64,000 nucleotides of DNA from Terriglobia bacterium (GCA_020072785.1 JAIQGG010000002.1:1240001-1304000), one strand, 5' to 3'. Shown: positions 5,289 through 21,171, numbered from the stretch's first letter. Numbers and translations: made by a program. Notes: a model not told the origin generated them from the sequence alone.

Positions 5289-8200
5289 TCAGTGAAGCTG
5301 GATGGTGGTGGCCTTCAGCGGACTCTGATCGCTGAGTTGCACCACGATGGTGTAACAGCCAGCCGGTGTGACGTTCGACGTATCCCAGTTAAAAATAAAC
5401 TGGTTGTTGGTCGTATCGTAGCGGAACGTGCTGTTGCCGGTGGCGCCCAATGTGGGCGCATAGAGCACATAGATCTGCCCAGTGGGCACGCCCGCGCACG
5501 CGGTGTTGAAGATCGCCTGCATGGAATTCAGCGAGCTGAGGCTGCTGACATAGTTTCCGTTGCCGTCGCGCAGTTGCCATTTGATGGGGACGGCACTGCC
5601 GAGGTTGGCCGTGCCGGAATAGGTTGGTGAAGAGAAAGTCCCAGCCACGGAGAGCGGACTGAGGAATCCGGTGAAAGCATAGGTCACGGTCAGCTGGACC
5701 GTCGAAGTTCCAGAACTCCCGGCGAAATTGGAATCGCCGGAATAGGTGGCCGTGAGCGTATGCGAGCCGATCGCTGTTGAGGTCAGGGAGCAGCTGGTTG
5801 CCGGCAGAGTGGCGGTACAGGAGGCACCCGCGCCATCGCTGGCCGTAACGGTCCCGGTGGGGGTGCCCGTGCCAGGTGCGACCACGGTGACGCTGAACGT
5901 GACCGTGGTGGGCTGGCCGACCACTACGGGATTGGGCGAAATCGAGACAATCATGGTTGTCGTGTTGGCCTTCACTTTAAAGGCAGCGAGTCCCGAACTG
6001 CCGGTATAGTTTCCGTCACCGGAGTAGGTTGCCGTCATGTTTCCCGCGCCGATGACGGTGGGGTTCAGCGAGCAGCTCGTCAGAGGCAGGGTAGCGGTGC
6101 AGGAGGCGCCTGCGCCATCGCTGATGGTTACGGTACCGCCCGGGGTTGGCGTGCCGCTGCCGGGCGGCAGCACAGTGACGCTGAAGGAGACAGTAACAGC
6201 CTGGCCGATCAGGGATGGGTTGGGCGTGACGGAGGTGATCGTCGTCACTGTGCCGCCCTTGTTTACAGTCAGGGTCACCGCGCGGGTGGCAGAGCGGGGT
6301 GGAGAGCTGGCGTCAACCGCTTGCACAGTGAACGTCGCTACGCCGGCGGAGGTAGGCGTGCCGCTGACGGCTCCGGTCGTGGAGTCGAGCGCCAGTCCCA
6401 GCGGCAGGGAGCCCAATTGAATCGACCAAGTATAGGGTGCGGTTCCTCCTGTAGCCTGCAGGGTCGCCTGGTAGGGAACCCCTACGATACCGTTGGGAAG
6501 CGTTCCCAGTGTGATGAGGGGCGGCATGGCAAATTTCGGCGTGTTGGAATCGGTGTTGGCCGCTTGGGCGGTAACCACGGGGGCGAGAATCGTGGGGATG
6601 GTCTGCATGGTGGTGGTGTCCACCGGGCTGCGCACCGTGACCAAGGCGGATTCGCCGGGGGCCAGGGTGAGGGTTGCATTGCCAATTTCCGGATTAGTGA
6701 GCGTTGGGTCAGCCAGATTGGTTGTGGCGAGATCGTTGGTGACGGCAGTGTCCACATTGGCCACCGGAATGATTTGAGTCTGCTGCATCAACTGGCAGCC
6801 GAGACCGACGGGGGTCTGGTAGCCCTTCGTGACCACCAACTGCAAATTGGTGCCAGCCGGGCTATTGCCGACCAGTTTCACGCCGTAGGAGGCGGTCGTA
6901 TTTCCGGAATTGCTCACGGTATAGGTGGCGTCGGAAATCGGACTGTTGGAGATGTTGGGATTGGAGATATTGGGGTTGGAAATGTTGGGATTGGAGATGT
7001 TGGGATTGGAGATGTTGGGATCGGAGACGTTGAGGTTCGCGATGTCCGGATTGGAGATATTGGGATTGGAGATGTTCGGATTGGAAATGTTGGGATTAGA
7101 AATGTTGGGATTGGAAATGTTCGGGTTCGAGATATTCGGGTTCGAGATATTGGGATTGGAGATGTTGGGATTATAGATTTCAATCTTTGAGATATCGCCC
7201 GCCGTGTTTCCGTCGGGATTGATGAGCGCGGGCGCAAGAGGGTCCGCATTCAGGACCGCATAGCCGGTGAGTCCATTGCTCACCAGGGTGCCACCGAGGC
7301 CGGTGATTTCCGCCACAGTGACGGTGATGGAGGCGGTGGGGCTGCTTGAGAGCGCAAAAATGGGACGGGCGATTCCCGCATGCGCAGCGATTTTGACGTC
7401 GAAGCCAGTATCGCTCGAGGTCAGCGCAGGCAGCGGAGAAGGAATCGGCTGATTGGGGACAGGGTTGAACGAGGCGCGTCCTCCCGGGGGCTGATTGGTG
7501 ATTGTGAGGCGGAACGTCTTGTCGAGATTCGTGGAGTTTTGCGCGAGAAGGATGAAGGAGCGTTGCAGCGTAGTGCTGAGAGGCTTGGAGTTTTGCGGAA
7601 CGCTCACGAGCAGGCCCTGGGTGATGCGGCTGCTATAGATATTCTGATTGCGCATGCCCTCCTGACCGGAGATGCAGGAAGGTGTCGTCCCGGAGCCAGT
7701 GACACTGGGACCTCCTCCGCCCACGGGAGTGTAGTGTGTCCAGTCCCCATCGGCCGGGGGACGGACATCCTGGTTGCTGGTCCAACTTGCATAGACGACA
7801 TTCGGATCCGAGGGCAGGGTGTTGAACCTCCAGCCGCCCGGCGCCGTGCTGGAAGGGAGGAAAGGCAGTCCCGCGAGGTCAATATAGTCACCCAGGAAGG
7901 CGAGCGTGCCCTGCGCGAACAATTTGAAGTTGGGAGGATCCACCTGCAATTGCTGCAAATACCCGGGGATATCGTTGGAATCATTGCGCAGCCCGAAATC
8001 GTAGCGGGAGACCCGGGCGGTGGAGAAAACGAGGGGAGATGCGCCAGTCACGGCCTGGGCGATCACCAGATCGATGGTATGCCTTCGGGCGGTCAATCCC
8101 TGGTCGGAGAGGAATGGAGTGAAGACCTGATCCGGGCTGGAGGGCAGTTCACCCTTGGCGACCCGGTCCTCCTGATAGAAATTGCCTGTGCCGGGGGCGG

Positions 8201-9599
8201 GAGAGAAGGGAGAATTAGGGGAATAGCGGCTGATGGTGTGATCCTCGCGAAGGTCGTAGTAAAGAACGAACAGTTTTCCGCCTGCGAGCGTGATTTGGGG
8301 CATCACCTGGTGCCCGCGGTTGAGCGTTTGTCCGGAGTCGCTGAGGAGGGGCAGGCCGCCTTCCATTAACGGGCCATTATCTATGGGGAATGGCTTGGAC
8401 CAATTCGAGCCGTTCGGAGAGGTGGTCATGACGATGCGCGCGTCTGCGGTGGGGGTCAGATTCGCGGAAAGACCGAATCCGCGTTGCGACCAGGCCAGAT
8501 AAACCGTGCCGAAACCATCCACCCCGATGGTGGGAAAGGAATGGGTGCGAAAGGAGGCGCCCGAAGATTCCTGATCGAAAAAGGAGGGAGCGGTGAGATT
8601 GTTGGGGTCAAAGGCAGGAAGGCTGGCGATATCCAGAGATTTGGAGAAGGACTTTCCGAAATTCGTGGAGACGACCCCGACGATGGCGTCGGGCTGGCTG
8701 CTGGTTAAGAACCGGCGCCAGGCGACATAGATGTTCCCTGTGCCAGGGTCAATGGCCATCGTGGTTCCCTGATTAACAGAATTGCTCTCGCTCAATTTAG
8801 ATGGCGTGCTCCATGTCGCTCCGCAATCCACGGACTTCGAAAACATGATCTTTGTGCTGGTGCTGCCGGTGAAACGGCTCCAGACGACGTAGATATTTCC
8901 AGCCGGAATCTTCTGCGTTACGGTCGTGCCGCCCTGTGGGACCTGAACGGTGCAAGTGGCAGTTCCGCGCGGGACGTCCACGGCGATCCACGGCTTATCC
9001 AGGAACTGTCCCGACGTGCCTGTATCAATGGGCACCACACCGATATAGCGGATAGGATCCAAGCTCTGGCTTGCGTCTCCACCTTCCAGGTTGTTGAGGT
9101 CCATGAAGCGAGCGACAAAGATTTGTCCCAGGTTGGTGCCGCGATTGAAAGCGATTCCGCTGTAATAGAAGAGCCCGTTGGTTCCGGCGCGGACAACGGG
9201 ATCCGCGGCGGTCGAATAGCCATGCAGAGGCGAAGCGAGCCCAATGGCCGACTGGTCTTGCGGATAGCCGGGAAGAAGGGTGCTCCCCCATGTCGCTCCG
9301 CCATCCAATGATTTAAATACACCCAGCCAGGCATCGCCCCGCTCATCCGATGAGTTGGGGTTGGGAATGTCCACCGAGCGATAATCATTTGCGCCGGCCA
9401 GGAGATGGATCGGATTGCGCGTGGAAACTGCCAGTGAGGGCTCATTCTGCCGCTGCAGGAAAGGATCACCCCCGGGCCACTTCGTTCCGGAAACCATGTT
9501 CACGTTCTGCCCGGGCGTTTGGCTCCACAGCGTGGATGCTGCGGCGAGCAGCAAGAGGGGAAGGATGCCCATTTTCGAGGCTCGTTGGGTAGTGCGCAT
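5289..9599 (-). CDS. Large secreted protein: Asp-box propeller, NPNIS repeats, Ig-like domains
   Basis: A 1436-residue exported protein starting at ATG 9599 with a GGAGG site just upstream. Residues 1-26 form a signal peptide (hydrophobic core LPLLLLAAAS). The N-terminal half looks like a sialidase-type beta-propeller: Asp-box motifs SLDGGATW and SVDCGATW are visible. The middle carries 16 consecutive five-residue repeats (mostly NPNIS). The C-terminal part has a putative-Ig/cadherin-like domain (TGGTAPYTW ... GTPTSAGVATFTVQA) and two near-identical bacterial Ig-like domains (Big_3_5 type, each with SDGAGASCTATLP and ATYSGD). No LPXTG, PEP-CTERM or Por sorting signal is visible. Probable extracellular or surface-bound adhesive or carbohydrate-interacting protein; enzymatic activity cannot be claimed because the sialidase Arg triad was not identified. 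Confidence 0.85.
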   Translation of the reverse strand: MRTTQRASKMGILPLLLLAAASTLWSQTPGQNVNMVSGTKWPGGDPFLQRQNEPSLAVSTRNPIHLLAGANDYRSVDIPNPNSSDERGDAWLGVFKSLDGGATWGSTLLPGYPQDQSAIGLASPLHGYSTAADPVVRAGTNGLFYYSGIAFNRGTNLGQIFVARFMDLNNLEGGDASQSLDPIRYIGVVPIDTGTSGQFLDKPWIAVDVPRGTATCTVQVPQGGTTVTQKIPAGNIYVVWSRFTGSTSTKIMFSKSVDCGATWSTPSKLSESNSVNQGTTMAIDPGTGNIYVAWRRFLTSSQPDAIVGVVSTNFGKSFSKSLDIASLPAFDPNNLTAPSFFDQESSGASFRTHSFPTIGVDGFGTVYLAWSQRGFGLSANLTPTADARIVMTTSPNGSNWSKPFPIDNGPLMEGGLPLLSDSGQTLNRGHQVMPQITLAGGKLFVLYYDLREDHTISRYSPNSPFSPAPGTGNFYQEDRVAKGELPSSPDQVFTPFLSDQGLTARRHTIDLVIAQAVTGASPLVFSTARVSRYDFGLRNDSNDIPGYLQQLQVDPPNFKLFAQGTLAFLGDYIDLAGLPFLPSSTAPGGWRFNTLPSDPNVVYASWTSNQDVRPPADGDWTHYTPVGGGGPSVTGSGTTPSCISGQEGMRNQNIYSSRITQGLLVSVPQNSKPLSTTLQRSFILLAQNSTNLDKTFRLTITNQPPGGRASFNPVPNQPIPSPLPALTSSDTGFDVKIAAHAGIARPIFALSSSPTASITVTVAEITGLGGTLVSNGLTGYAVLNADPLAPALINPDGNTAGDISKIEIYNPNISNPNISNPNISNPNISNPNISNPNISNPNISNPNISNPDIANLNVSDPNISNPNISNPNISNPNISNPNISNSPISDATYTVSNSGNTTASYGVKLVGNSPAGTNLQLVVTKGYQTPVGLGCQLMQQTQIIPVANVDTAVTNDLATTNLADPTLTNPEIGNATLTLAPGESALVTVRSPVDTTTMQTIPTILAPVVTAQAANTDSNTPKFAMPPLITLGTLPNGIVGVPYQATLQATGGTAPYTWSIQLGSLPLGLALDSTTGAVSGTPTSAGVATFTVQAVDASSPPRSATRAVTLTVNKGGTVTTITSVTPNPSLIGQAVTVSFSVTVLPPGSGTPTPGGTVTISDGAGASCTATLPLTSCSLNPTVIGAGNMTATYSGDGNYTGSSGLAAFKVKANTTTMIVSISPNPVVVGQPTTVTFSVTVVAPGTGTPTGTVTASDGAGASCTATLPATSCSLTSTAIGSHTLTATYSGDSNFAGSSGTSTVQLTVTYAFTGFLSPLSVAGTFSSPTYSGTANLGSAVPIKWQLRDGNGNYVSSLSSLNSMQAIFNTACAGVPTGQIYVLYAPTLGATGNSTFRYDTTNNQFIFNWDTSNVTPAGCYTIVVQLSDQSPLKATTIQLH
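6933..7172 (-). repeat. 16 tandem 15-bp coding repeats (NPNIS pentapeptide)
   Basis: Inside the 1436-residue gene, 16 in-frame units of 15 bp encode NPNIS (12 perfect copies), with four variants NPDIA, NLNVS, DPNIS and NSPIS. The codons vary between units (AAT/AAC, ATT/ATC, TCC/TCT/TCG), so protein sequence is conserved more strictly than DNA. Read as x-N-I-S-x, the register resembles the A(N/D)LXX pentapeptide repeat, so a beta-solenoid is plausible but unproven. Confidence 0.95.
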
Positions 9600-10023: not shown

Positions 10024-11922
10024 TCAGGAAGGAAAGCCGATCCCGCGCAGAATCTGCTGAATCCGGGGGTCGCCTAGCACTGCCCGGAGTCGCGGGTCCA
10101 CCTTCAGTCCGGTCAGTTGCCACATGTGTTCCCGGTAGGCGCGCTCCAGGGTCACCACAGCCTTCTCGCGCTGGCCGAGCGCAATTTGGAGCACGGCGAT
10201 GCTGGCGCTGTCAAAAGCGAATTGCCGCGGCGATTGGAGCATCTTTTTCAGAATGTTCTGCGCTTCCGCCTTCCGGCCCATGCGGGCAAGGATGATGCCC
10301 TGCTCGACGTCAATCCACGGCGCGTCTCCCAGAGTTTGGGCGGCTTGCACTTCCTGAAGGGCCTCCGCGAAGCGGCCCTGCTGTTCGTAGACCATGGCCA
10401 GATGGCCATGCGCTGACGCAAAGTAGGGATCCAGCTCCACAGTGTGCCGGAGCTGTTCGGCGGCTTTTTCGTACTCTCCGCGGTAATAATAGGGGAGTGC
10501 CGCCTCTACATTGATAATTGGGGAGAGCGGGTCCAGCTCGAGTGCACGCTTCGACTCCTGAATTGCTTCGTCCTGGCGTCCCATTTGCCGGAGGAATTCC
10601 CCGTACCATTGATGCGCCGTCGCATATCTGGGATTGTCCTCGAAACTCTTCTGGAACTCCTTTTCCGCGGCGGGGAAGTCCCAACCATAGAAATACGTAT
10701 AAGCCAGCGTGGCATGGGCTTCGGCCAGCGTCGGGTCCAGGTCCAGCGCGTGCTGCGCCTCCGCGCGCGCCTGGCCGAGCAGCTCCCGCGCGGAAACGGA
10801 ACTATAAATGAATTGCACGGCGAAGCAGTCCGCCAAGGCCGCATGGGCCCGCGCCCAGCCAGGGTCGCGCGCAATGGCCTGCCGCAGGAGATGGATTGCC
10901 TTCTCTATCCCTTCGGGCGTCCTCCGGCTCCAGAAGTGTCGCCCTTCGAGATAGAGTTCATAGGCCTCCGGATCCACGGAGCCAACGCTTTCCAGCCGAA
11001 CTGCTTTTTCCGGCGCAATCTTCACCGCGATTTCTCCGGCAATGGACCGCGCCACCTGACTCTGCAACTCCAAGATGTTGCGCAAATCCCGGTCGTAATT
11101 CGCGGCCCAAAGAGTGCTCTGATCGCTCACACGGATCAGCTGCGCCGATACGCGGATGCGCTTGCCCTCGCGGCGCACACTTCCGTCCAGCAGGTAATCC
11201 ACGCCGAGCTCTTCCCCGATCTGGTGACTGTCCTTCTTCGTGCCGCGATAGAGCATTGCGGAGGTGCGGGCAATAACTGTGAGCCGCTCCGGGTTGAGCT
11301 GTCCGATCTGCGTGATCATCTCCTCGCTGAAACCGTCGCTGAGATAGTCCTGCGCGGGATCTCCGCTGAGGTTCACGAAGGGAAGTACGGCCAGCCGGGC
11401 GCGCTTCTCTGCGGAGGGCATGGCTGTCACTGGCGCAGGGGGTGGGCTCCTGCGGCGCAGGCTTACGGCCAGCGATCCCGCAAGAAGCACCACGACGGCG
11501 GCAGCAGCCACCCAGGAGAATCGTCTCGGGACGGAGCGTGGCATGGCCGGCGTGGCCTGCACCGGAATGTGGGGAGAGGGAGCCAGTGGCTCGTGCACGA
11601 CCGGGGCATCAAACCGGTAGCCGCGCTTTGGAACCGTTCCGATGTAGTCCTGCCCCGTGGCCTGTTTGCCCAGCGCTTTGCGCAGCGTCAGGATATTCTG
11701 CGCCAGCGTGGACTCCTCGACAAAAGTATCCGGCCACACGCGCTGGAGCAGAGTTTCTTTAACCACGACATGGCCGGCGTTCTCCACGAGGACGAGGAGA
11801 GTTTCCGCAGCTTTGGGCGTTAACGGAATTCTGTCTCCGGCTTTCTTTAATACGCGGTCTTTTGCATCCAGATGATAAGGGCCGAAAGTGTAGGCGACGC
11901 GCGTTGGAGTTTCTGAGGTCAC
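10024..11922 (-). CDS. Winged-helix (OmpR/CadC-type) regulator with TolB-like and TPR domains
   Basis: A 632-residue regulator from a GTG start at 11922 (AGAAAGG just upstream); the frame runs on to an ATG at 12009, but the DNA-binding domain begins right after the GTG. Seen: an OmpR/PhoB-type winged helix at about 10-105 (FGPYHLDAKDRVLKK, LTPKAAETL, GTVPKRGYRF), one membrane helix near 140-158 (VAAAAVVVLLAGSLAVSL), a TolB-like nucleotide-cyclase-associated region (RLAVLPFVNLSGD ... YLSDGFSEEM), and TPRs to the C-terminus. The CadC-like topology suggests a membrane-anchored transcription factor driven by an extracytoplasmic or TPR-bound signal. It is divergent from the exported-protein cluster beginning at 12.1 kb, a natural but untested target. 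Confidence 0.9.
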   Translation of the reverse strand: MTSETPTRVAYTFGPYHLDAKDRVLKKAGDRIPLTPKAAETLLVLVENAGHVVVKETLLQRVWPDTFVEESTLAQNILTLRKALGKQATGQDYIGTVPKRGYRFDAPVVHEPLAPSPHIPVQATPAMPRSVPRRFSWVAAAAVVVLLAGSLAVSLRRRSPPPAPVTAMPSAEKRARLAVLPFVNLSGDPAQDYLSDGFSEEMITQIGQLNPERLTVIARTSAMLYRGTKKDSHQIGEELGVDYLLDGSVRREGKRIRVSAQLIRVSDQSTLWAANYDRDLRNILELQSQVARSIAGEIAVKIAPEKAVRLESVGSVDPEAYELYLEGRHFWSRRTPEGIEKAIHLLRQAIARDPGWARAHAALADCFAVQFIYSSVSARELLGQARAEAQHALDLDPTLAEAHATLAYTYFYGWDFPAAEKEFQKSFEDNPRYATAHQWYGEFLRQMGRQDEAIQESKRALELDPLSPIINVEAALPYYYRGEYEKAAEQLRHTVELDPYFASAHGHLAMVYEQQGRFAEALQEVQAAQTLGDAPWIDVEQGIILARMGRKAEAQNILKKMLQSPRQFAFDSASIAVLQIALGQREKAVVTLERAYREHMWQLTGLKVDPRLRAVLGDPRIQQILRGIGFPS

Positions 11923-12101
11923 AGGCCTTTCTACCGGCCAAATCCTGTAAATTTCACGCCGATTTGAACAGAATTTGAGCCCCCTTTCAAGACTTCTCGG
12001 AAGCCACACGCTAAAACTCGCCGCCGGATAAAGAGCGCCGGGATCGCCTTTCTAAGTTTTGCTGGGCGTCCGGGCAAACGAAGACTTCTGCGGGAGTCAA
12101 A

Positions 12102-12563
12102 TTGTCCATGCAAACCGGGAAAATTTATCCCATCGAGCGCAAGACAGGCGCGGGGATGCCGGGGTTGATTGCCGGTACGGCACTGCTTCTCTTATTTTCG
12201 GCTGGCCAGCGGGTTCCTGCCCAGCCTTATCCGCAAAAAAAGGCAGTGTCGGCAGCCACCTACTCAGAGGGCTGGCAGCAGGATCTCAGGCTGTTCGAGA
12301 AGCGCTGGAATGCCCTCCTCTCAAATCGCCAGAGCGACGATAAAGCGAGATGGACGGCCCTCGAGAACGATCTGCGCGGCTTCGCAAAGAAATATGACCA
12401 GCACCTCGAGGAGCACATGCGGCGGGCCAAGGCCGCAGTTCCAGGCAATCCTTCAGCCCCTCCCGCTTGTGCGGTGCGGGACGATGTTCCCGGTTACAGG
12501 TGCTATCTCTTCGCCGGACCCAGGGGAGTCTGCCGCTACATATGCGTGCCAGTGAAATCGTGA
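12102..12563 (+). CDS. Small exported hypothetical protein
   Basis: I do not recognise this 153-residue protein. The start is either TTG 12102 (GGGAG five bases upstream) or ATG 12108 two codons later. A hydrophobic export segment follows a basic N-terminus (GLIAGTALLLLFSAG, ending near VPAQ). The middle is charged and probably helical (KRWNALLSNRQSDD to HLEEHMRRAK). The tail holds four cysteines (PACAVRDD, YRCYL, VCRYICV), suggesting disulfides outside the cytoplasm. It is the first gene of the rightward exported-protein cluster and lies divergent from the winged-helix regulator. Confidence 0.6.
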   Translation: MSMQTGKIYPIERKTGAGMPGLIAGTALLLLFSAGQRVPAQPYPQKKAVSAATYSEGWQQDLRLFEKRWNALLSNRQSDDKARWTALENDLRGFAKKYDQHLEEHMRRAKAAVPGNPSAPPACAVRDDVPGYRCYLFAGPRGVCRYICVPVKS

Positions 12564-12631
12564 GGTTCCGGAGGCGCACGCAAAGGTTTCTGCAGTCGCA
12601 GAGGACTTAGGCAATGGAAAGGGTGAAGCAC

Positions 12632-14620
12632 ATGAATCCGAAAAAAACATTCAGCGCTATGTGGATCAGCGCCGTAATTGCGACCGCGTGGATGCTGCTT
12701 GCGGTGGCCACGGGCCAGGCACAGCAGAGAACTGTGAAGAAATTACCTCCGCGTGCGGCCGCCACGGCCGCTTCTTCCGCGCCGGAGCCGAAGTACAAGG
12801 GCATCTGGGAGCCCGTGAACTATCCGGACGACGTCCAGTTGAAGGATGTTTACTTCGTCAACGACAAGGTGGGATGGGTCGCCGGGAAAGGTCAGGGAGG
12901 AATCATCCTGCACACTGCGGACGGCGGCGAGCACTGGGACATCCAACTCGGTGATCCGAATTCCAACGAAGAAAGTTTCGATGATCTCCGTTTCCTGGAC
13001 CAGACGCACGGCTGGGCGGTGCAAAGAGGCGGCAAGCTGGTGCGCACCGCGGACGGCAAGAACTGGGAGGAAGCGGGCTCGCTTCCCGGCCAAATGAAGG
13101 ATTATCAGTTCCTTACTCCGCGGAATGGCGTCGAGACGGGCGGATTTTTCAACGATTCCCGAATCAATGTCACCGCAGATGGCGGACGCAGTTGGAAGCC
13201 GGTATTTCAATGCGCCACTACCCTGCGAGTGGAAGGTCTGACGAAGCACGTAGGTTGTTACGTGGAGGATTTGCATTTTCCGTCTCTGCGCGTGGGCTAC
13301 GGCGTGGGTGGAGGCTTCAATGGCGGGTATGCCGTGATCGCGAAAACGGAGGACGGCGGGGCATCCTGGAAAGTGATTTTCGCCAGCACCGACATGGAGA
13401 CGGCCGAGGCGGTCTTCTTCACCGACGAGAAGAACGGCGTCATTCGGCTTAAAGACCGGAAGATTTTCCTCACCGCGGATGGCGGCCAATCGTGGCGCGG
13501 GGTACCGGCTTCTGCAAACGGCTTGATTAAATTCGGGGATCCGGAAGCGGGCGGCTCATGCCGCGAACGGAGCTGCAGCTTCACCACGGATGGCGGCCAG
13601 CACTGGATTTCCCGGGATCTCCGGTTCCCAGCATCCGTCGAATCCTTCAGCATCCCGCGGCGCGACCGGATCTACGTCGTCGGGGAACACGGCATGGTGT
13701 ACCGGTATCGCATCGTTCCGGCCGACTACCTGGCGCAGGGAATTCTCGATGCCCCGCTGCTGTCCCCTTACGGAGGTGCCGTCCCTGCGCAACTCGGCCG
13801 CTTAAGAGCCGAGGTTCAGCAACTCCAGACCAAAATCGGCGCTGCCGGCGGGTCCGCAAGCCCGGCTTCACGAACAGGAATTACGTCACAGTCTGCGAGG
13901 GGGCCGGCTGGTCAGCCACAAAATCAGACCAATACCTCGCAAGATCAAACCGCTCCCGCAGCCGATGCTGCATCCGCCGGGCAGGACCCCGGCGCGGCGG
14001 AGACCGGATTCTCCCAAGACGCTGCAAACGCCCCGGCGGGAGCCGATAGCCAGAGTGCCGGGGGGGACGCTGCATTTTCGCAGGATAGCGGCTTTTCGCA
14101 AGATGCCTTGAGCGCTCCACCGAGCCAACCCCTCCAGGACTGTTGCGGAGAGCAGATACAGGGTCTGCAGACGGACTTGAACTCGTTTTCGCAACAGGTG
14201 CCAGCCTTCACCGGAAAGTACCGCAACCTGAACCTTCTGTTCGTGGGCCTGAACATGATTAACGATCTGATCGGGAAGGCCCGTGGCATGCGCGACGCTT
14301 TTCTCGCGCTAAAGAAAGCCCCCAACCTCCCGGTGGCCGCCGCCGCTCTTCAGGATTTGGCCGGCAAGCTGGACAACACCTCCCAATCAATCTCGACGGG
14401 TTTCCAGGATCTCAATGCAGGCGGTTTCTCGCAGGGGGCCGGCGGCGCAGTGAGCAACATGATCGGCAACGCGGTCTCCGGTGAGCCCGCGGGAGATCCA
14501 AATGCCGGGCCGGGGGCACAAACCGCAAGCCAGGACGCAGAGCAGCAAAAGAAGGAGGAGAAGAAGAAGAGCGACACGATGGAGAAGTTAAAGAAGCTGA
14601 AGCGAAAATTTCCCTTTTAG
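12632..14620 (+). CDS. Exported Ycf48/BNR-like beta-propeller protein with low-complexity tail
   Basis: A 662-residue protein. ATG 12632 is preferred over ATG 12614 because GGAAAGGG lies eight bases ahead of it. Residues 1-29 look like a signal peptide. Residues about 45-360 contain repeated TADGG(x)xW-type blades (HTADGGEHWDI, VTADGGRSWKPVF, TTDGGQHWIS) and DVYFVNDKVGWVAG, typical of the Ycf48/HCF136 and sialidase-like propellers. A Gln/Ala/Ser-rich linker follows with several FSQD motifs, then a helical region and a lysine-rich tail (EKLKKLKRKF). In cyanobacteria Ycf48 assists photosystem II assembly; that role cannot apply here, so this is a fold-level call. It sits in the same run as the Cys-Cys-domain proteins. 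Confidence 0.75.
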   Translation: MNPKKTFSAMWISAVIATAWMLLAVATGQAQQRTVKKLPPRAAATAASSAPEPKYKGIWEPVNYPDDVQLKDVYFVNDKVGWVAGKGQGGIILHTADGGEHWDIQLGDPNSNEESFDDLRFLDQTHGWAVQRGGKLVRTADGKNWEEAGSLPGQMKDYQFLTPRNGVETGGFFNDSRINVTADGGRSWKPVFQCATTLRVEGLTKHVGCYVEDLHFPSLRVGYGVGGGFNGGYAVIAKTEDGGASWKVIFASTDMETAEAVFFTDEKNGVIRLKDRKIFLTADGGQSWRGVPASANGLIKFGDPEAGGSCRERSCSFTTDGGQHWISRDLRFPASVESFSIPRRDRIYVVGEHGMVYRYRIVPADYLAQGILDAPLLSPYGGAVPAQLGRLRAEVQQLQTKIGAAGGSASPASRTGITSQSARGPAGQPQNQTNTSQDQTAPAADAASAGQDPGAAETGFSQDAANAPAGADSQSAGGDAAFSQDSGFSQDALSAPPSQPLQDCCGEQIQGLQTDLNSFSQQVPAFTGKYRNLNLLFVGLNMINDLIGKARGMRDAFLALKKAPNLPVAAAALQDLAGKLDNTSQSISTGFQDLNAGGFSQGAGGAVSNMIGNAVSGEPAGDPNAGPGAQTASQDAEQQKKEEKKKSDTMEKLKKLKRKFPF

Positions 14621-14680: not shown

Positions 14681-15763
14681 ATGGCACTGCGGAACAAGGC
14701 TTTCACGTTTGCGGCGCTGGCGATTTTGTTCACGGCTCTGGCTCCGGCGGCACACGCCCAGCTGGGGCCGTGCTGCATGATCACGGCCATAGACGCCCGT
14801 ACCGCGACGGTGACCGCAAAGATCAACCCCAGCGGGGCGACCTTCGAATTCCGGGTGACCAATCCGCTCCTTCTTCGCGGGCTGCGTCCCGGCCAGAGTG
14901 TCTACGCCAACTTCAAAGCGAAGCAGGTGTCGCTCGACGGCAAGACGGCCTGCTGCGCTATTACCGCGGGACCAACGGCTGGGCCGGTAGCCGGCACCGC
15001 ACCCGTAGCCGGCTGGGGAGGTCCCAATTCACTTGCCGGGGGGCGGCCGGGAAAACTGCCGTCTGCGCCCGCCCAAATGGGACCCATCGTTCCCGCGCTG
15101 GGATGCCCGGCGGGGCCAGCGGCTCCTGACCTGATGATTACCGCGCTGGGCTTCGATCCGGCGAGACATGTGACGTACACGGTGGCCAACTGCGGACAGG
15201 CGACTACGCAGCAGCCATTCATCGTGGATTTGTATCTCAAGGCGGACCGTGGCGATACGGTAGAGCACCAGCCCTTGCCGGCAAGGTCACAGCAAACGGT
15301 GACCTCGCAACTGGCGCAATACCGGGGCTGCGACCGGGTCCAACTGCGGGCCGTGGCCGACCCTCAGCACATTGTCTCGGAAGCGAATGAGAACAACAAC
15401 GAGCGCACCCTCGACATCGTGCCGCCGTGTCCCGACCTGGTGGTGCAGGAGATCAAGCAGGACTGGGAAGACGCAAATACCCGCTATCTCGTGCAGATCA
15501 AGGTCGGAAACACGGGGAACGGGCCGTCGCAGGTTCCGGTCTACGCGCGGGTGGTGGTTTTTGCGAGCGGTGTCTCCATCCCGCAGCAGGAAAATCAGGA
15601 AATTCCCCCGCTGGCTCCGGGGCAATCGTTCATCTTCCACCCTCAAGGAAAGCATCTGGCGACAAGCACCACGGAGATCGACATTTTCGTGGACTTTTTC
15701 AAGCAGCTCATGGAAGCGAACGAAGAGAACAACATCGCGCACAAGACGCTCGGTCCGCATTGA
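14681..15763 (+). CDS. Exported Cys-Cys-domain protein with two CARDB-like domains
   Basis: A 360-residue protein; ATG 14681 is chosen because GGAGGCGGAG immediately precedes it and a signal peptide (residues 1-26, cut near AHA-Q) follows. Residues about 28-95 form the shared domain of this locus: CC at 31-32, ITAIDARTATVTAK, FEFRV, YANFKAKQVSLDGKTACC with the second CC at 91-92. A Gly/Pro/Ala linker leads to two CARDB-type beta-sandwiches, each ending in an Asn-rich signature (EANENNN and EANEENN) typical of cell-adhesion-related domains. The neighbouring hydrolase starts 32 bp downstream. The function is unknown; the modules suggest extracellular binding or scaffolding. Confidence 0.8.
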   Translation: MALRNKAFTFAALAILFTALAPAAHAQLGPCCMITAIDARTATVTAKINPSGATFEFRVTNPLLLRGLRPGQSVYANFKAKQVSLDGKTACCAITAGPTAGPVAGTAPVAGWGGPNSLAGGRPGKLPSAPAQMGPIVPALGCPAGPAAPDLMITALGFDPARHVTYTVANCGQATTQQPFIVDLYLKADRGDTVEHQPLPARSQQTVTSQLAQYRGCDRVQLRAVADPQHIVSEANENNNERTLDIVPPCPDLVVQEIKQDWEDANTRYLVQIKVGNTGNGPSQVPVYARVVVFASGVSIPQQENQEIPPLAPGQSFIFHPQGKHLATSTTEIDIFVDFFKQLMEANEENNIAHKTLGPH

Positions 15764-15795
15764 CCACAGGGGAACACTGTTTCGGGAGAAATAGC

Positions 15796-17268
15796 GTGAA
15801 GAAAGCGCTCCTTATGTTGTTGCTGGCGATGTTCTTCAGCGGACCTGCGGCGCACGCCCAGCCGGCGCCGTGCTGCACGATCACGGCCATCAACTCCCGC
15901 GCCGCGACGGTTTCCGCAAAGGTCAACTCCACCGGGCAATCGTTCGAGTTTCGCGTGCCCAACGCAAAACTCTTGGCCGGGCTGCACCCCGGCCAGGGCA
16001 TTTACGCAAATTTCAAAGCGAAACAGGTGTCGCTCGACGGGCGAACCGCGTGCTGCGAGATCATCAATCTTTCGCCGGAGGAGCAGATTTCTTCCCCGGG
16101 TCTCCTGGCAGGCAAGGGAACCGTCGCTGGCACGAGCGTGCAAAGCCTCCAGCCCGGCAAGTGCACGCACGCGTGGTTGCCGGCGGACGGCGGGGTTCTC
16201 TGCCGGGGCAAGGATGCCTCGCGCCCGGCCATTCTGCTGGTCCACGGACTGCACCAGAGCGCCGAGACCTGGACGAAGCCCTCCAGCACGGGCTATACGT
16301 ACGATTTTCGCCATCCGCCGCCGGAAAAGGACTTGGGAGAGCATTCCGCGCCGAACGCCGGTCTCTACAAGGCAGGTCCTTCCGAGCTTCTCAATGTGGA
16401 CCCGCTGAACTGGCTGGGCTACCTGGTGGCGCAAGGTTTCACCGTGGCCACCTGGAGCCAGCCCTGCTGCAACTTCGAGAAGGCCTACGATTCCGCCAAG
16501 CGTGCTCTGGCGCAATTTGCCGGCGACGTCGGGGTTATGTACCCCGCAGCGCCGCCGCCGATTGCGCTGGTTGGCCACAGCCGCGGCGGCCTGCTGATCC
16601 ACAAACTCCTGCGCGAACAGGGCAGCCTTGGCGGGCGCATCCGCTGGATGATTACCATCCACTCGCCACATCACGGCAGCCTCGTGGCCAAGACTCCCGA
16701 GGTGCTCGTCAACGATGCCGAAAAAGTTTTCGACGGAGCCAATCTACCTTCGGCGGTAAAAGGCCCGCTGCGCGAAGCCGCCATTAAGATCGTCAGCCCG
16801 ATGCACCAACTGATCGACGACGGATCGAAGGAATTGGCCCCGGACAGCCCCGTGATTACCGGCCTGCTCAACGGAGACGCCCCGGTGCCGGGCGTGCAGT
16901 ACTACACCTTCGGCGGGACGAACCCCATGATTGTGCGCCTCTATACCTGGCTGTTCACGCCGGAGAGTGCGGTGCCGCAGTACAAGGGTCTGGAGCAATA
17001 TTTTCACTGGAAGGCCAAGCCGGCGGAGGTGGGACTGGTGTCGCCGCTGCTCGACGGTGTCAATGCGGTCGTGCCGGAAATCAAAGCGGGGCAGGGAGAC
17101 ACCTTAGTCACGGATGCCAGTGCGCGGTTGCCGTACTCCATCCACGAAACCGACCAGCTCAACCACGCAGAAGTGCTTTGGGATCGCCCGCTGCAGGAAA
17201 AGGTGGCGCGGATTCTGTCCGGCGCGTTGCAACCAATCCATGCAGGAAAACCGGGAGATATGCGATGA
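15796..17268 (+). CDS. Exported Cys-Cys-domain protein with alpha/beta-hydrolase (lipase-like) domain
   Basis: A 490-residue protein from GTG 15796 (GGGAG seven bases upstream), although the frame stays open far upstream. A signal peptide (1-21, AHA-Q) precedes the locus-specific domain: CC at 26-27, FEFRV, YANFKAKQVSLDG, second CC at 86-87. Residues about 130-490 are an alpha/beta-hydrolase: ILLVHGLHQSAETW (oxyanion region), and the nucleophile elbow GHSRGG with the catalytic Ser. A candidate His lies in the C-terminal NHAEVLW. A lipase/esterase or acyltransferase acting outside the cytoplasm is likely. Its stop overlaps the next start (ATGA). Confidence 0.82.
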   Translation: MKKALLMLLLAMFFSGPAAHAQPAPCCTITAINSRAATVSAKVNSTGQSFEFRVPNAKLLAGLHPGQGIYANFKAKQVSLDGRTACCEIINLSPEEQISSPGLLAGKGTVAGTSVQSLQPGKCTHAWLPADGGVLCRGKDASRPAILLVHGLHQSAETWTKPSSTGYTYDFRHPPPEKDLGEHSAPNAGLYKAGPSELLNVDPLNWLGYLVAQGFTVATWSQPCCNFEKAYDSAKRALAQFAGDVGVMYPAAPPPIALVGHSRGGLLIHKLLREQGSLGGRIRWMITIHSPHHGSLVAKTPEVLVNDAEKVFDGANLPSAVKGPLREAAIKIVSPMHQLIDDGSKELAPDSPVITGLLNGDAPVPGVQYYTFGGTNPMIVRLYTWLFTPESAVPQYKGLEQYFHWKAKPAEVGLVSPLLDGVNAVVPEIKAGQGDTLVTDASARLPYSIHETDQLNHAEVLWDRPLQEKVARILSGALQPIHAGKPGDMR

Positions 17269-18065
17269 ACACAAACGCAGGAAGTCGTGCCGCTGCAAGC
17301 CGGCGGATGCGAAGCACCCAGAGGGCGAAATGGGCCGAATTCCTGGCGATGGTTCTCCTTGCACTGTCCGCTGCATCCGGTATTGCCGCGTATCCCGCAG
17401 GCGCTCCGCGCGCGGCAAGCCCGCGCCCGGCTGCTGTGGTGAACTATCCGCTGGCGCTGCACACGCGCTGGACCTATCACTTGCGGCATGAGGTCGGCCC
17501 GGGCGTGCACTTTGATGACGAATACGCAGGGCTTGCGAAGGGCAATGTGCTTGAAGACACGGTAGTTTCCGAAGTCGCCGGGAAAGATCGCATCGGGAAC
17601 CTGTCTTATGTACGTGTCGAGAACCGCCGTTCCCGGGGGCTCTGGCTCACCGAGTGGTATCGCGCGGCAGAGGAAAGTCTCTTCCTCGGCAAAACAATTG
17701 AATCGGAAACTGGCAACGTAACGCGGATGATTCCGCCGCAAAAAGTTCTGACCAGGACGCTCCGGGCGGGGGAAGCCTGGACCTGGCAAGCGAGCGATGC
17801 GCCCGTCAAAATCCGCGTGAATGTCAAGGGCACATCCGCAGTCACGGTTCCCGCGGGAACGTACACGACCACGGAGATCGCCTATGTGCTGACCATGCCC
17901 ACTCCGGGGGGCATGGCCCGCGCCGAACAGACTCGCTGGTTCGTTCCCGGCATCGGCTGGGTGAAGCAGGAGACCCGCACGCGGATCGGAACGCGCCTGG
18001 TGACCTACATCACGGTGACGCTTGAAAAATTCGAGCCCGGTGCGGCTCGCGAAACTATCCGTTGA
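17265..18065 (+). CDS. Exported hypothetical protein, DUF3108-like beta-rich
   Basis: A 266-residue protein coupled to the hydrolase by a 4-bp ATGA overlap; GGGAG precedes ATG 17265. After a long basic N-terminus comes a hydrophobic export segment (FLAMVLLALSAASGIAAY). The mature part is beta-rich with the pattern YPLALHTRWTYH ... VPAGTYTTTEIAYV ... RWFVPGIGWVKQE, which resembles DUF3108-type periplasmic proteins common in acidobacteria and proteobacteria; this is pattern recognition, not a verified hit. It lacks the Cys-Cys domain found in its neighbours. Function unknown. Confidence 0.65.
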   Translation: MNTNAGSRAAASRRMRSTQRAKWAEFLAMVLLALSAASGIAAYPAGAPRAASPRPAAVVNYPLALHTRWTYHLRHEVGPGVHFDDEYAGLAKGNVLEDTVVSEVAGKDRIGNLSYVRVENRRSRGLWLTEWYRAAEESLFLGKTIESETGNVTRMIPPQKVLTRTLRAGEAWTWQASDAPVKIRVNVKGTSAVTVPAGTYTTTEIAYVLTMPTPGGMARAEQTRWFVPGIGWVKQETRTRIGTRLVTYITVTLEKFEPGAARETIR

Positions 18066-18082
18066 AGCAGGAGAAAACAAAC

Positions 18083-20920
18083 ATGAAACGCTTGCTCTTT
18101 CTCATTGTCGTGTTGATCGGACTTAGCCAGCCGCTGCGCGCGGGGGCTCCGTGCTGCAAAGTGACTGCGGTGAATGTGCGCACGGGAATGGTTACCGCTC
18201 AGGAGAACGCGACCGGCCGCACGTTTGAGTTCCGCGTCACAAATGCAGCGCTGCTGGCCAAACTTCGGCCGGGCATGCCTGTTTACGCTAATTTCAGCGC
18301 CAAGCAGGTTTCTCTGGACGGCAAGACCGCCTGCTGTGCGATCACGAAGATCAACGCAGCTCCTCCGCGGGGCGGCGTGGGCGCCGGGCCGGCTTCGCCG
18401 GCCGCACCGGCGGCTCCCACTGCAGGACCAGCGCCTGCTCCGGGCACGGCTGCGCCCCCGCCAGCATCCGCAAATCCATCGAGCGGCTCGGCGCAGGGCG
18501 CCAAGGCGGGCCAGCAGAAGCCCACGACCCAACAGTCCTCCTCGGGCAGCAACACGGACAAGCCCATTACCGACGCCTCGCAAATCACCGCATCGGAGCC
18601 TAATGACACGGCCATGGCGATCCGCGGGGCTACCGCTGCGCCGCCGGCCGGCGGGCCGGCACCTTGCTGCACAGTAATCTCCGTGGATGTGCGGGCAGGA
18701 ATCGTGACCGCTCGAGAAGAATCGAGAGGGAGAACATTCGAAGTGAAGCCCGACGATCAGGGCCTGATGGCCCAGATCCACCCCGGCCAGGGCGTCTATG
18801 CGAATTTCAAGACAAACCAGGCCTCGCTCGACGGAAAGACGGCGTGCTGCAAAATCTTGGTGGAATCCTCGCCAGGGGCCGGCCGGGGGGTCATTGACGC
18901 GGCGGGAGCGGCGACAAATCCTGCGGCAGTTCAGCAAGGGATGCGGCCAAACGGGACGCCCTTGGAAGCGCTGAAGGGAGCGACAGGAGCAGCGCCCGCT
19001 GCGCCAACAGCAGGCGCCGCGCGACAGGAGGGCACCGGATTGGCGCCGCCGAACGGTGCGACAGGCGCTCAACCCTCCAAGCCTCTCGCCGGAGGAATTC
19101 ATGGCACGCAAGCGCTGCAAGGATTTACCTTGCCCGTGGTCACCGCCGGGGCGCCCCAGCGCGTGGATAGCATGGGGCCGCAGAAGGGCACGCCCGGCAA
19201 CCTCCTGGCGCGGAGTAGCGGGGTGAACAGCCATGTTCTGCGGGTTCGCGGGCTGGCCGGTATCCAGCAGGCTACCAGTCTGCCGGAAGGAGCGCGCGAA
19301 CTTCTGCTGATGCATGCGCGAACCCTGGGAGCGGGTGAGTTGGATGATTACATCGTGAACACGCAACTCGCCGAAGAGTGGATGAAGACGCATCCCGCTC
19401 CGGCTTCGGCAAAAGCCGCGACCAGCGGCGATAAACACACCGGATGCAAGGCCATCTCCATCCATTGCGCGGAGGAGGCCGGCCAGCACGCGGTGGACGA
19501 AGCCTCCCGGCAAAGCGAAAAGTACCTGAAACAGGCTCGCGAGGAATGGAAGCACGTGACCGATGAAGCCACGCACGACTGGCATATGACGGAAGGATGC
19601 TTTGCCGACCACACCCTTACGGTGCCGAACATCCCCGTGCAGTTTTCCATTACTCCGCAAATCAGCCTGGACGCGGAGAAGAGCGGCTCGACCAGCAACA
19701 AATACGGCTCGGCTTCCGGGAACGTGAAAGGAACCGTGAGCTTCGGTATTCCCCTCGACGCCGATTTCCAGGCGCAGCTGGATCTTTTCTATATTCCCTG
19801 CCTGCCCTTCGCCGTCCGCCCGAGAAGCCTGGGTGCGAATGGGTCCCTGGTTTCAGGCAGCAGGCTCGGCGCAACCCTCACCGCAACCGGTAACTTCAAA
19901 CAGCATTTCATGATTCCCCCCAGCGGCGGCCCGCATTTTCCGATCGAGGTCATCCCCATCGTGATTGCGGGCGTGCCCGTGGCGGAACTGGACGTCAGCG
20001 TCTATGTGGACGGCACGCTGGACATTGACGGAGACGGGAGGTTGGACAGCAATTTCACGCTCGAGGCCAGTCAGAAAACCAATTTCGATTTTAACTGCAG
20101 CGGCAAAGGCTGTGGCTTGCGTTCCCATACGGCCCCCCTGCCCAAGACAGCATCGGAGGCCGTCAAAGTCCAAGGGCGAGTCCACGTAAAGCCCGCGGTT
20201 TATGCGGCGCTCCAGCTTGATTTCGACGTGGATCTCCTGAGCGCCCGCGCGGGACCGCAACCCTACCTGCTGGGCGAACTCTATGGGTGCGGCGCTGCCT
20301 CGGGGACGCAAACGCAGGGCGGCCCGTCCACCGCGCAGGAGTTCTATGCATTCACCGCCGATCTGGATTGGGGCATTGAGCTGCGGTCCGAGGCTTTGGT
20401 GGCCAACAAGATTGTGGCCGAGGCGCCGAGGATTCAGCTTGTGCCGGCCAATAAGAAACACCTTTACTTCAAGGATCTCGCTGCCTCCACCGCCCTGCTT
20501 CCGCTTCTGGATGGCAACTTGCAGCCTTCGGCCGGTCGCTCCGCGTCCTACAAGACAAAGATGCCGGCCTGTTATCCTTACTCCGACCCTGTGGAGTACC
20601 AGGTCAACTGGACTGGTGGCGCTACTGCCACCAGCGCTTCCACCAGCACTGCCGCCACCAATAGCAAAGTTCGGAGTGACGCACTCACGATGCTTTCGGG
20701 GAGTAAAGCGCAACCGGCTTCGAGCAGCGCGCCCTCGGCATGCACGTTGCAAGCCGGACAGGGGGATTGCTGGAGCGATCCGCTGAAGGACGTTTCCTTG
20801 GACCTGGTCTGGCCCCAGGCCGGCCCGTACACCCTGAGCGTCGTCCCGGTGCGCGACAAGCATGGCCGGCAATTTACGGAGGAGACGGGCACGAAACTGG
20901 ACATCACCGTGCAGCCGTAG
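18083..20920 (+). CDS. Large exported protein with two Cys-Cys domains
   Basis: A 945-residue protein from ATG 18083 (AGGAG about ten bases upstream). The signal peptide is residues 1-20 (KRLLFLIVVLIGL). It has two copies of the locus domain: CC 24-25 to 84-85 and CC 195-196 to 255-256, both spaced exactly 60 residues. They are joined by an Ala/Pro/Gly-rich linker with many prolines. A second low-complexity linker is followed by a unique region from about 370 to 945, apparently mixed helix then beta-rich, with scattered cysteines. I recognise no catalytic motif in it. The first copy has FEFRV as in the other genes; the second has the diverged FEVKP. It is the last intact gene of the cluster and is followed by a decayed homologue. 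Confidence 0.75.
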   Translation: MKRLLFLIVVLIGLSQPLRAGAPCCKVTAVNVRTGMVTAQENATGRTFEFRVTNAALLAKLRPGMPVYANFSAKQVSLDGKTACCAITKINAAPPRGGVGAGPASPAAPAAPTAGPAPAPGTAAPPPASANPSSGSAQGAKAGQQKPTTQQSSSGSNTDKPITDASQITASEPNDTAMAIRGATAAPPAGGPAPCCTVISVDVRAGIVTAREESRGRTFEVKPDDQGLMAQIHPGQGVYANFKTNQASLDGKTACCKILVESSPGAGRGVIDAAGAATNPAAVQQGMRPNGTPLEALKGATGAAPAAPTAGAARQEGTGLAPPNGATGAQPSKPLAGGIHGTQALQGFTLPVVTAGAPQRVDSMGPQKGTPGNLLARSSGVNSHVLRVRGLAGIQQATSLPEGARELLLMHARTLGAGELDDYIVNTQLAEEWMKTHPAPASAKAATSGDKHTGCKAISIHCAEEAGQHAVDEASRQSEKYLKQAREEWKHVTDEATHDWHMTEGCFADHTLTVPNIPVQFSITPQISLDAEKSGSTSNKYGSASGNVKGTVSFGIPLDADFQAQLDLFYIPCLPFAVRPRSLGANGSLVSGSRLGATLTATGNFKQHFMIPPSGGPHFPIEVIPIVIAGVPVAELDVSVYVDGTLDIDGDGRLDSNFTLEASQKTNFDFNCSGKGCGLRSHTAPLPKTASEAVKVQGRVHVKPAVYAALQLDFDVDLLSARAGPQPYLLGELYGCGAASGTQTQGGPSTAQEFYAFTADLDWGIELRSEALVANKIVAEAPRIQLVPANKKHLYFKDLAASTALLPLLDGNLQPSAGRSASYKTKMPACYPYSDPVEYQVNWTGGATATSASTSTAATNSKVRSDALTMLSGSKAQPASSSAPSACTLQAGQGDCWSDPLKDVSLDLVWPQAGPYTLSVVPVRDKHGRQFTEETGTKLDITVQP

Positions 20921-20950: not shown

Positions 20951-21073
20951 AGGAAGCGCTTGTTCCTGCCGGTGATCGGGTGCATAACTCTGTCTCTAGG
21001 AATGGGGCAGCCGTTGCAAGCGCAAGTCCCTTGCTGCACGGCTTGGAAAAACTCAACGACTCTTACACCATAA
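20951..21073 (+). pseudogene. Decayed 5' remnant of a Cys-Cys-domain gene
   Basis: Read in the frame from 20951, this encodes a signal peptide (RKRLFLPVIG ... GQPLQAQ) followed by VPCCT, then runs out of homology and stops at TAA 21071-21073. It aligns with the start of the 945-residue protein just upstream (KRLLFLI ... SQPLRAGAPCC). The expected ATG is AGG, and the remaining roughly 60 residues of the domain are missing; a tRNA gene begins 23 bp later. A duplicated copy that lost its start codon and 3' part is the simplest reading. Confidence 0.65.
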
Positions 21074-21096
21074 GGAAGAAGAATGGGGCGAAGGGA

Positions 21097-21171
21097 TGGT
21101 GCCGGGGGCCAGAATCGAACTGGCTACGCCCGCCTTTTCAGGGCGGCGCTCTACCGGTGAGCTACCCCGGC
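21097..21171 (-). tRNA. tRNA-Phe (GAA)
   Basis: Read on the minus strand it folds as a complete cloverleaf of 75 nt: acceptor GCCGGGG/CCCCGGC, D arm AGCTCACCGGTAGAGC, anticodon stem CCGCC/GGCGG with loop CTGAAAA (anticodon GAA), T arm with GTTCGATTC, discriminator A and an encoded CCA. It separates the exported-protein cluster from ftsK. Confidence 0.96.

Follow-up and report, generated by a model that had tools for sequence, protein, structure and literature searches.

A probable CusF-related OB module with paired cysteines on varied exported proteins of a Terriglobia bacterium

The Cu(I)/Ag(I) chaperones CusF and SilF are OB barrels with the strand order 1-2-3-5-4-1 and with their metal ligands at one barrel end; the ligands in CusF are His36, Trp44, Met47 and Met49, this His, Trp, Met, Met set is strictly conserved, and the two have been called the only OB proteins with metal binding as their sole function (PMC10656224). 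Here we describe a module found in four copies in a 64,000-nucleotide stretch of a Terriglobia bacterium genome (JAIQGG010000002.1:1240001-1304000; the whole stretch is called the window, and positions are counted from its first letter). The module is carried by three neighbouring exported proteins, has two Cys-Cys (CC) pairs, and is very probably a CusF-related OB module; it is an undescribed variant of that known fold, with a putative role for the paired cysteines.

The relationship to CusF was seen when a profile of 15 modules was aligned by hhalign with a profile of 12 CusF sequences (that of E. coli and domains from the same bacterial family, among them the CusF of the source genome itself), which gave a match of 94.2% with E 1.2e-7 and a score of 39.8, the best of 60 column-shuffled profiles scoring 14.6. 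Against the Pfam family CusF_Ec (PF11604), copy 1 in isolation reached E 2.3e-4 and 21.4 bits and the best whole protein with a CC module reached 24.1 bits, both below the gathering cut-off of 27, and a weak, sub-threshold match of this kind was found in nine of the 12 members tested. An earlier note on this DNA, made from the sequence alone, knew no named family with this pattern and held that a confident match to one would count against its reading; the first statement has to be given up, the domain being a remote CusF/OB-fold relative, and a named-family match was found by half, in that the relatedness to CusF is there and the Pfam cut-off is not reached. Structure prediction, one of the checks proposed in that note, gave an OB-type layout when AlphaFold was run on the four window copies together with a copy from an Acidobacteria metagenome-assembled genome (L015), with a predicted local distance difference test score (pLDDT) of 89.2 and a predicted template modelling score (pTM) of 0.75; strands were placed at residues 6-12, 17-22 and 28-32, a helix at 36-41, and further strands at 47-51, 56-58 and 64-72. 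Among the structures listed by VIA-align, most were barrels of OB or OB-like type (cold-shock, IF5A/EF-P, the proteasomal-ATPase OB, the C-terminal part of CysA), at Z 5-6. In a merged alignment, Met49 of CusF corresponds to a near-invariant Phe of the modules, Met47 to a variable column and Trp44 to a gap, and a conserved His is absent from the modules. In a tree whose bootstrap had not fully settled, the CC modules split from CusF with full support. Searches of PDB sequences with module profiles returned chance matches only.

Translation confirms that there are four intact copies in the three proteins, with the codons of the first CC pairs starting at 14771, 15871, 18152 and 18665. Over some 70 residues the identity of the copies to copy 1 is 47-67%, and where synonymous divergence (dS) is unsaturated the ratio of non-synonymous to synonymous change (dN/dS) is 0.1-0.3, such that synonymous change exceeds non-synonymous change and the copies are therefore real conserved coding sequence. 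The distance of 60 residues between the pairs, which the earlier note had stressed, holds in all four copies and likewise in the seven relatives that have both pairs; because the copies are homologous, however, this spacing is inherited and does not amount to four independent facts. A protein search of the whole source genome found the intact module in these four places only. The cluster's four exported proteins, a YCF48-like neighbour included, together hold 10 CC pairs, against a mean of 0.66 in shuffled sequences (maximum 5 in 20,000). The description of the module as a shared N-terminal domain is right for the first module of each protein and wrong for the second copy in the protein that starts at 18083, and it does not extend to L020 and L015 among the relatives, where the module is C-terminal. 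No lipobox of the form [LVI][ASTVI][GAS]C could be read where the signal peptide ends in the three proteins; Pro precedes the first Cys in all four copies, and the three proteins have type-I-like sites that would part AHA from Q or LRA from G, features that would argue against lipoprotein processing.

Whole-genome searches found the module in two genomes of the same genus (G289 and G232), one of the same family (G663) and one of the same class (G149). A genome of the same phylum (G555) has the module without cysteines, and a pattern scan of GTDB added L015, which has the second pair only and which, as an Acidobacteria genome, makes Acidobacteriota the probable phylum of the window; genomes outside the phylum were covered by this two-pattern scan only. 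The module is rare, occurring in four of 299 genomes of the class and in six of 89 genomes of the family, two of these six being weak matches of the DUF5666 type. Weak matches in G283, G226 and G779 were set aside as DUF5666/CusF-type proteins with no CC pairs in the matched stretch, one in G385 (L022) as a probable chance match, and two viral ones (L037 and L038) as chance 26-residue matches inside what read from sequence as terminase-like proteins. No plasmid match was found by tblastn, and PADLOC (anti-phage defence) and PHROGs (phage) gave no match at E 0.01.

The earlier view of a constant exported module on variable partners is borne out, and the survey of other genomes extended it. In the window the partners are CARDB domains, a hydrolase and a large unknown region; in relatives they include a GH25 lysozyme fused to two CC modules in G663 (L039 6539-8737, minus strand; PF01183, E 2e-26), an EGF tail in G149 and a tectonin domain in L015. 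The hydrolase part of protein 2 is 69.7% identical to its copy in G149. The large region of protein 3 recurs in G289, G149 and G663 and remotely, in reversed order, in G232; protein 3 and its counterparts in the first three have 10 cysteines outside the modules, a PKD-like stretch was read by eye at the end of the region (WGDGS...HTY in the G232 row), and a PDB search with a profile of the region returned nothing of note. Directly 5′ of the CC-module gene of G289 there is a CsgG/FlgT_C-like fragment (L018 2-463; CsgG E 5.8e-4, below cut-off).

A second constant of these loci is the YCF48-like propeller protein, which lies nearby at all five clusters with a readable neighbourhood (the window, G149, both G663 loci and G555), the tails of these five proteins having CC...VPxF...R.LNL in common. 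In rarity the tail is roughly on a par with the module, with matches in three of 299 class genomes and two of 396 phylum genomes; no tail match came from G232 and G289, two incomplete assemblies whose modules are encoded close to contig ends. In another genome, G082, the YCF48-like gene has a broken frame and, as in the window, there is a divergent Trans_reg_C/TPR regulator; the next gene (L060 1245-2294, minus strand) encodes a protein with GPCC after its signal peptide, in which neither an OB domain nor a Pfam match was detected. Within the source genome, a signal peptide with AQx(x)PCC after it is confined to this cluster; other in-frame AQx(x)PCC sites were rejected, as they do not stand behind signal peptides. 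The CC tails are encoded at window 12614-14620 and in L019, L021, L039, L040 and L060.

The cysteines are kept or lost by pairs. Both pairs are present in 11 of 15 modules, the first only in two, the second only in one and neither in one, and no single-Cys remnant was seen among the 15. The two first-pair-only modules, G149b and G663_C58, group together in the tree (support 83/82), and their loss of the second pair may have been a single event. Among the exported proteins of these loci whose mature part has cysteines, 16 of 18 have an even number of them; the rows being related and not independent, a binomial P is optimistic here. Pairwise retention and loss together with the even counts favour disulfides over a metal site, and, with the extra CC pairs in the hydrolase and in the YCF48-like tail, the pattern favours the view that each CC behaves as a disulfide unit. 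The targeting or attachment role proposed in the earlier note is conjectural. In the module one pair stands at the start of strand 1 and the other at the start of strand 5.

We tentatively propose, with somewhat less than even confidence, that the module is used for docking or binding and that its cysteine pairs are oxidised. It would be a divergent CusF-like exported OB barrel that has no copper site and serves as a small accessory unit on secreted multidomain envelope proteins. With the starts of strands 1, 3 and 5 and the ends of strands 2 and 4 expected at one end of the barrel, the pairs would ring what in CusF is the metal mouth; each CC would probably be one unit, as a vicinal disulfide, or else the two pairs would be stapled across strand 4, and the oxidised cysteines would fix a rigid face at the mouth. 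Perhaps this face is where an envelope ligand or the YCF48-like protein is recognised, so that the attached enzyme or adhesin-like domain is brought into position, which is the least secure step. Directly supported are the CusF homology, the OB layout, the absence of the CusF ligands, the varied partners, the conserved cysteines and the association with a CC-bearing YCF48-like protein.

Several points weigh against this proposal. Foldseek gave no confident match for the module (best E 1.8), CusF itself is absent among the VIA-align rows listed, and Z values below 8 may reflect just a common arrangement. The one-pair members G149b, G663_C58 and L015 indicate that the four cysteines are not essential, and in G555 both the fold and the YCF48-like neighbour are present though the module has no cysteines at all. 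That both pairs lie at the end where CusF binds its metal is a deduction from OB topology, and fusion and neighbourhood are all that suggests a ligand or partner role. As to oxidation, a VKOR-type oxidant was not found in the genome, DsbA and DsbB not having been looked for.

A plainer possibility, which we regard as unlikely, is that cross-strand disulfides between pair 1 and pair 2 stabilise a secreted OB barrel and that the vicinal arrangement has no special role. The constant spacing and the retention of both pairs in 11 of 15 rows fit such a staple, as does the predicted position of the pairs on either side of strand 4 at one barrel end, but the three one-pair rows would leave two cysteines unpaired or vicinally bonded, and the total Cys counts of the two first-pair-only proteins are still even.

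Ranked below this is a soft-metal thiolate site, in which the four cysteines would stand in for the His/Met/Trp set of CusF as extracytoplasmic ligands of Cu(I), Ag(I), Hg(II) or Zn(II), so that the proteins would scavenge metal or be regulated by it. The module is after all related to a metal chaperone, and topology puts its pairs at the end of the barrel where CusF has its metal site. What makes this doubtful is that no copper or efflux family was matched among the cluster proteins scanned, unlike the efflux context of CusF; that the partners are lysozyme, hydrolase and adhesion-type domains; that either pair can be absent while even Cys counts favour disulfides; and that the source genome encodes, apart from the modules, a bona fide CusF that has the Met/His motif (G000:C2:921637-921840).

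Less probable again is intermolecular assembly, with the CC pairs as docking cysteines that link the cluster proteins to each other or to the YCF48-like tail: CC pairs do occur in the modules, in the hydrolase, in all six YCF48-like tails read and in the G082 protein after its signal peptide, and in the source genome the signal peptide with AQx(x)PCC is limited to this cluster, but the G555 module is Cys-less though its YCF48-like CC is kept, each CC has a plausible intramolecular explanation, and the single-sequence model of the tail is too poor to be relied on (pLDDT 55). Least probable of all is an extension of that idea, in which paired Cys would be a shared chemical tag, such that effectors with an N-terminal (A/G)PCC or OB-borne CC and a CC-bearing YCF48-like scaffold form a disulfide-assembled or redox-switched surface complex that has spread horizontally beside a tRNA gene.

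Table 1. Layout of the cluster and its surroundings (window positions).
Feature	Position	Strand	Content and matches
Divergent regulator	10024..12009	-	winged-helix Trans_reg_C (PF00486) + TPR; same kind and arrangement in G082
Small exported protein	12102..12563	+	four Cys; probable first gene of cluster
YCF48-like (PSII_BNR) propeller protein	12614..14620	+	C-terminal tail; PF14870 E 2.8e-15
CC pair of YCF48-like tail	14141..14146	+	QDCCGEQ; present in five aligned tails and G082
Exported protein 1	14681..15763	+	signal peptide, then CusF-like CC module, linker and two CARDB domains (PF07705 in two stretches, E 7.6e-18)
CC module copy 1	14771..14962	+	in protein 1; C31-C32 ... C91-C92
Exported protein 2	15796..17268	+	GTG start; signal peptide, CC module, alpha/beta-hydrolase (PGAP1/Abhydrolase-like, GHSRGG)
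CC module copy 2	15871..16062	+	in protein 2
CC pair in hydrolase	16465..16470	+	residues 224-225, SQPCCNF; third CC of protein 2; conserved in G149
DUF3108-like exported neighbour	17265..18065	+	PF21347 E 4.9e-8; predicted mature part without cysteine; also beside a G663 locus
Exported protein 3	18083..20920	+	signal peptide and two CC modules, with low-complexity linkers and a large unknown region
CC module copy 3	18152..18343	+	in protein 3
CC module copy 4	18665..18856	+	in protein 3; most divergent
Partner region of protein 3	19229..20917	+	conserved in G289, G149, G663; remotely in G232, order swapped
Truncated fifth copy	about 20954..21073	+	signal-peptide-like stretch with AQVPCCTA before a stop; start codon not clear
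tRNA-Phe(gaa)	21097..21171	-	nucleotide identity with five same-genus relatives stops at tRNA 3′ end

The coordinates are collected in Table 1. The truncated fifth module gene is placed between protein 3 and tRNA-Phe (window 20954-21097), and near the cluster a 1436-residue protein with bacterial Ig-like domains (Big_3_5, He_PIG) is encoded on the minus strand at 5289-9599. Synteny with the five same-genus genomes (L086-L090) breaks off at the tRNA-Phe(gaa) 3′ end, and the window genes beyond it were not found in these genomes, except for a 33% identical regulator-like match in L090; since identity ends at the tRNA, the region next to it that holds the cluster is variable, which suggests horizontal gain. 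Within the window there is no attachment repeat in the form of a second tRNA-Phe end, and no integrase was seen among the upstream open reading frames scanned, so an integrated island is at most presumed.

Several described systems can be set beside the module. The neighbouring YCF48/PSII_BNR protein passes its Pfam cut-off but adds a tail with a conserved CC, and whereas Ycf48 of Synechocystis has a lipidated N-terminus (PMC8038367), the window protein has, as judged from its sequence, a type-I-like signal peptide; its co-occurrence with the module makes it a concrete candidate interaction. Vicinal disulfides are described in the A2 domain of vWF and as a sugar-contacting Cys-cis-Cys in 1wd4, and roles in ligand contact, rigidity or switching have been assigned to them (PMC12102755; PMC9210963); adjacent cysteines in secreted proteins are common to these systems and the module, and the likeness would be one of functional analogy only. 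A literature search on this motif, or on even-cysteine statistics in this phylum, returned nothing directly relevant. DUF5666 (PF18914) and TOBE domains are likewise small OB-type barrels, and proteins that match DUF5666 and CusF below threshold are weakly picked up by the module profile; unlike the module, those DUF5666-type proteins have no CC pairs in the matched stretch, and module matches to DUF5666 and TOBE (against TOBE, PF03459, E 0.003 for copy 1 alone, and 18.0 bits at best among the proteins scanned, cut-off 22.3) are mostly weaker than those to CusF_Ec and fall below the cut-offs.

CusF and SilF are the nearest comparison. Like them, the module is a small exported OB barrel with a matching strand pattern, and its block FEFRV...LL..L+PGQ.VYANF aligns to CusF MRFTI...M.EIKTGDKVAFNF; unlike CusF, it has a shorter strand 2-3 loop and an extra SLDG hairpin before strand 5, it has two added CC pairs and is fused to large partners, and it does not keep the metal ligands. 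Here a barrel known as a metal chaperone would, in the absence of its metal site, be a portable unit attached to secreted enzymes and adhesin-like proteins, and OB topology would put its vicinal cysteines at the CusF-type metal mouth; a non-metal or thiol-based relative of CusF, if that is what it is, would clarify how the metal site arose or was lost.

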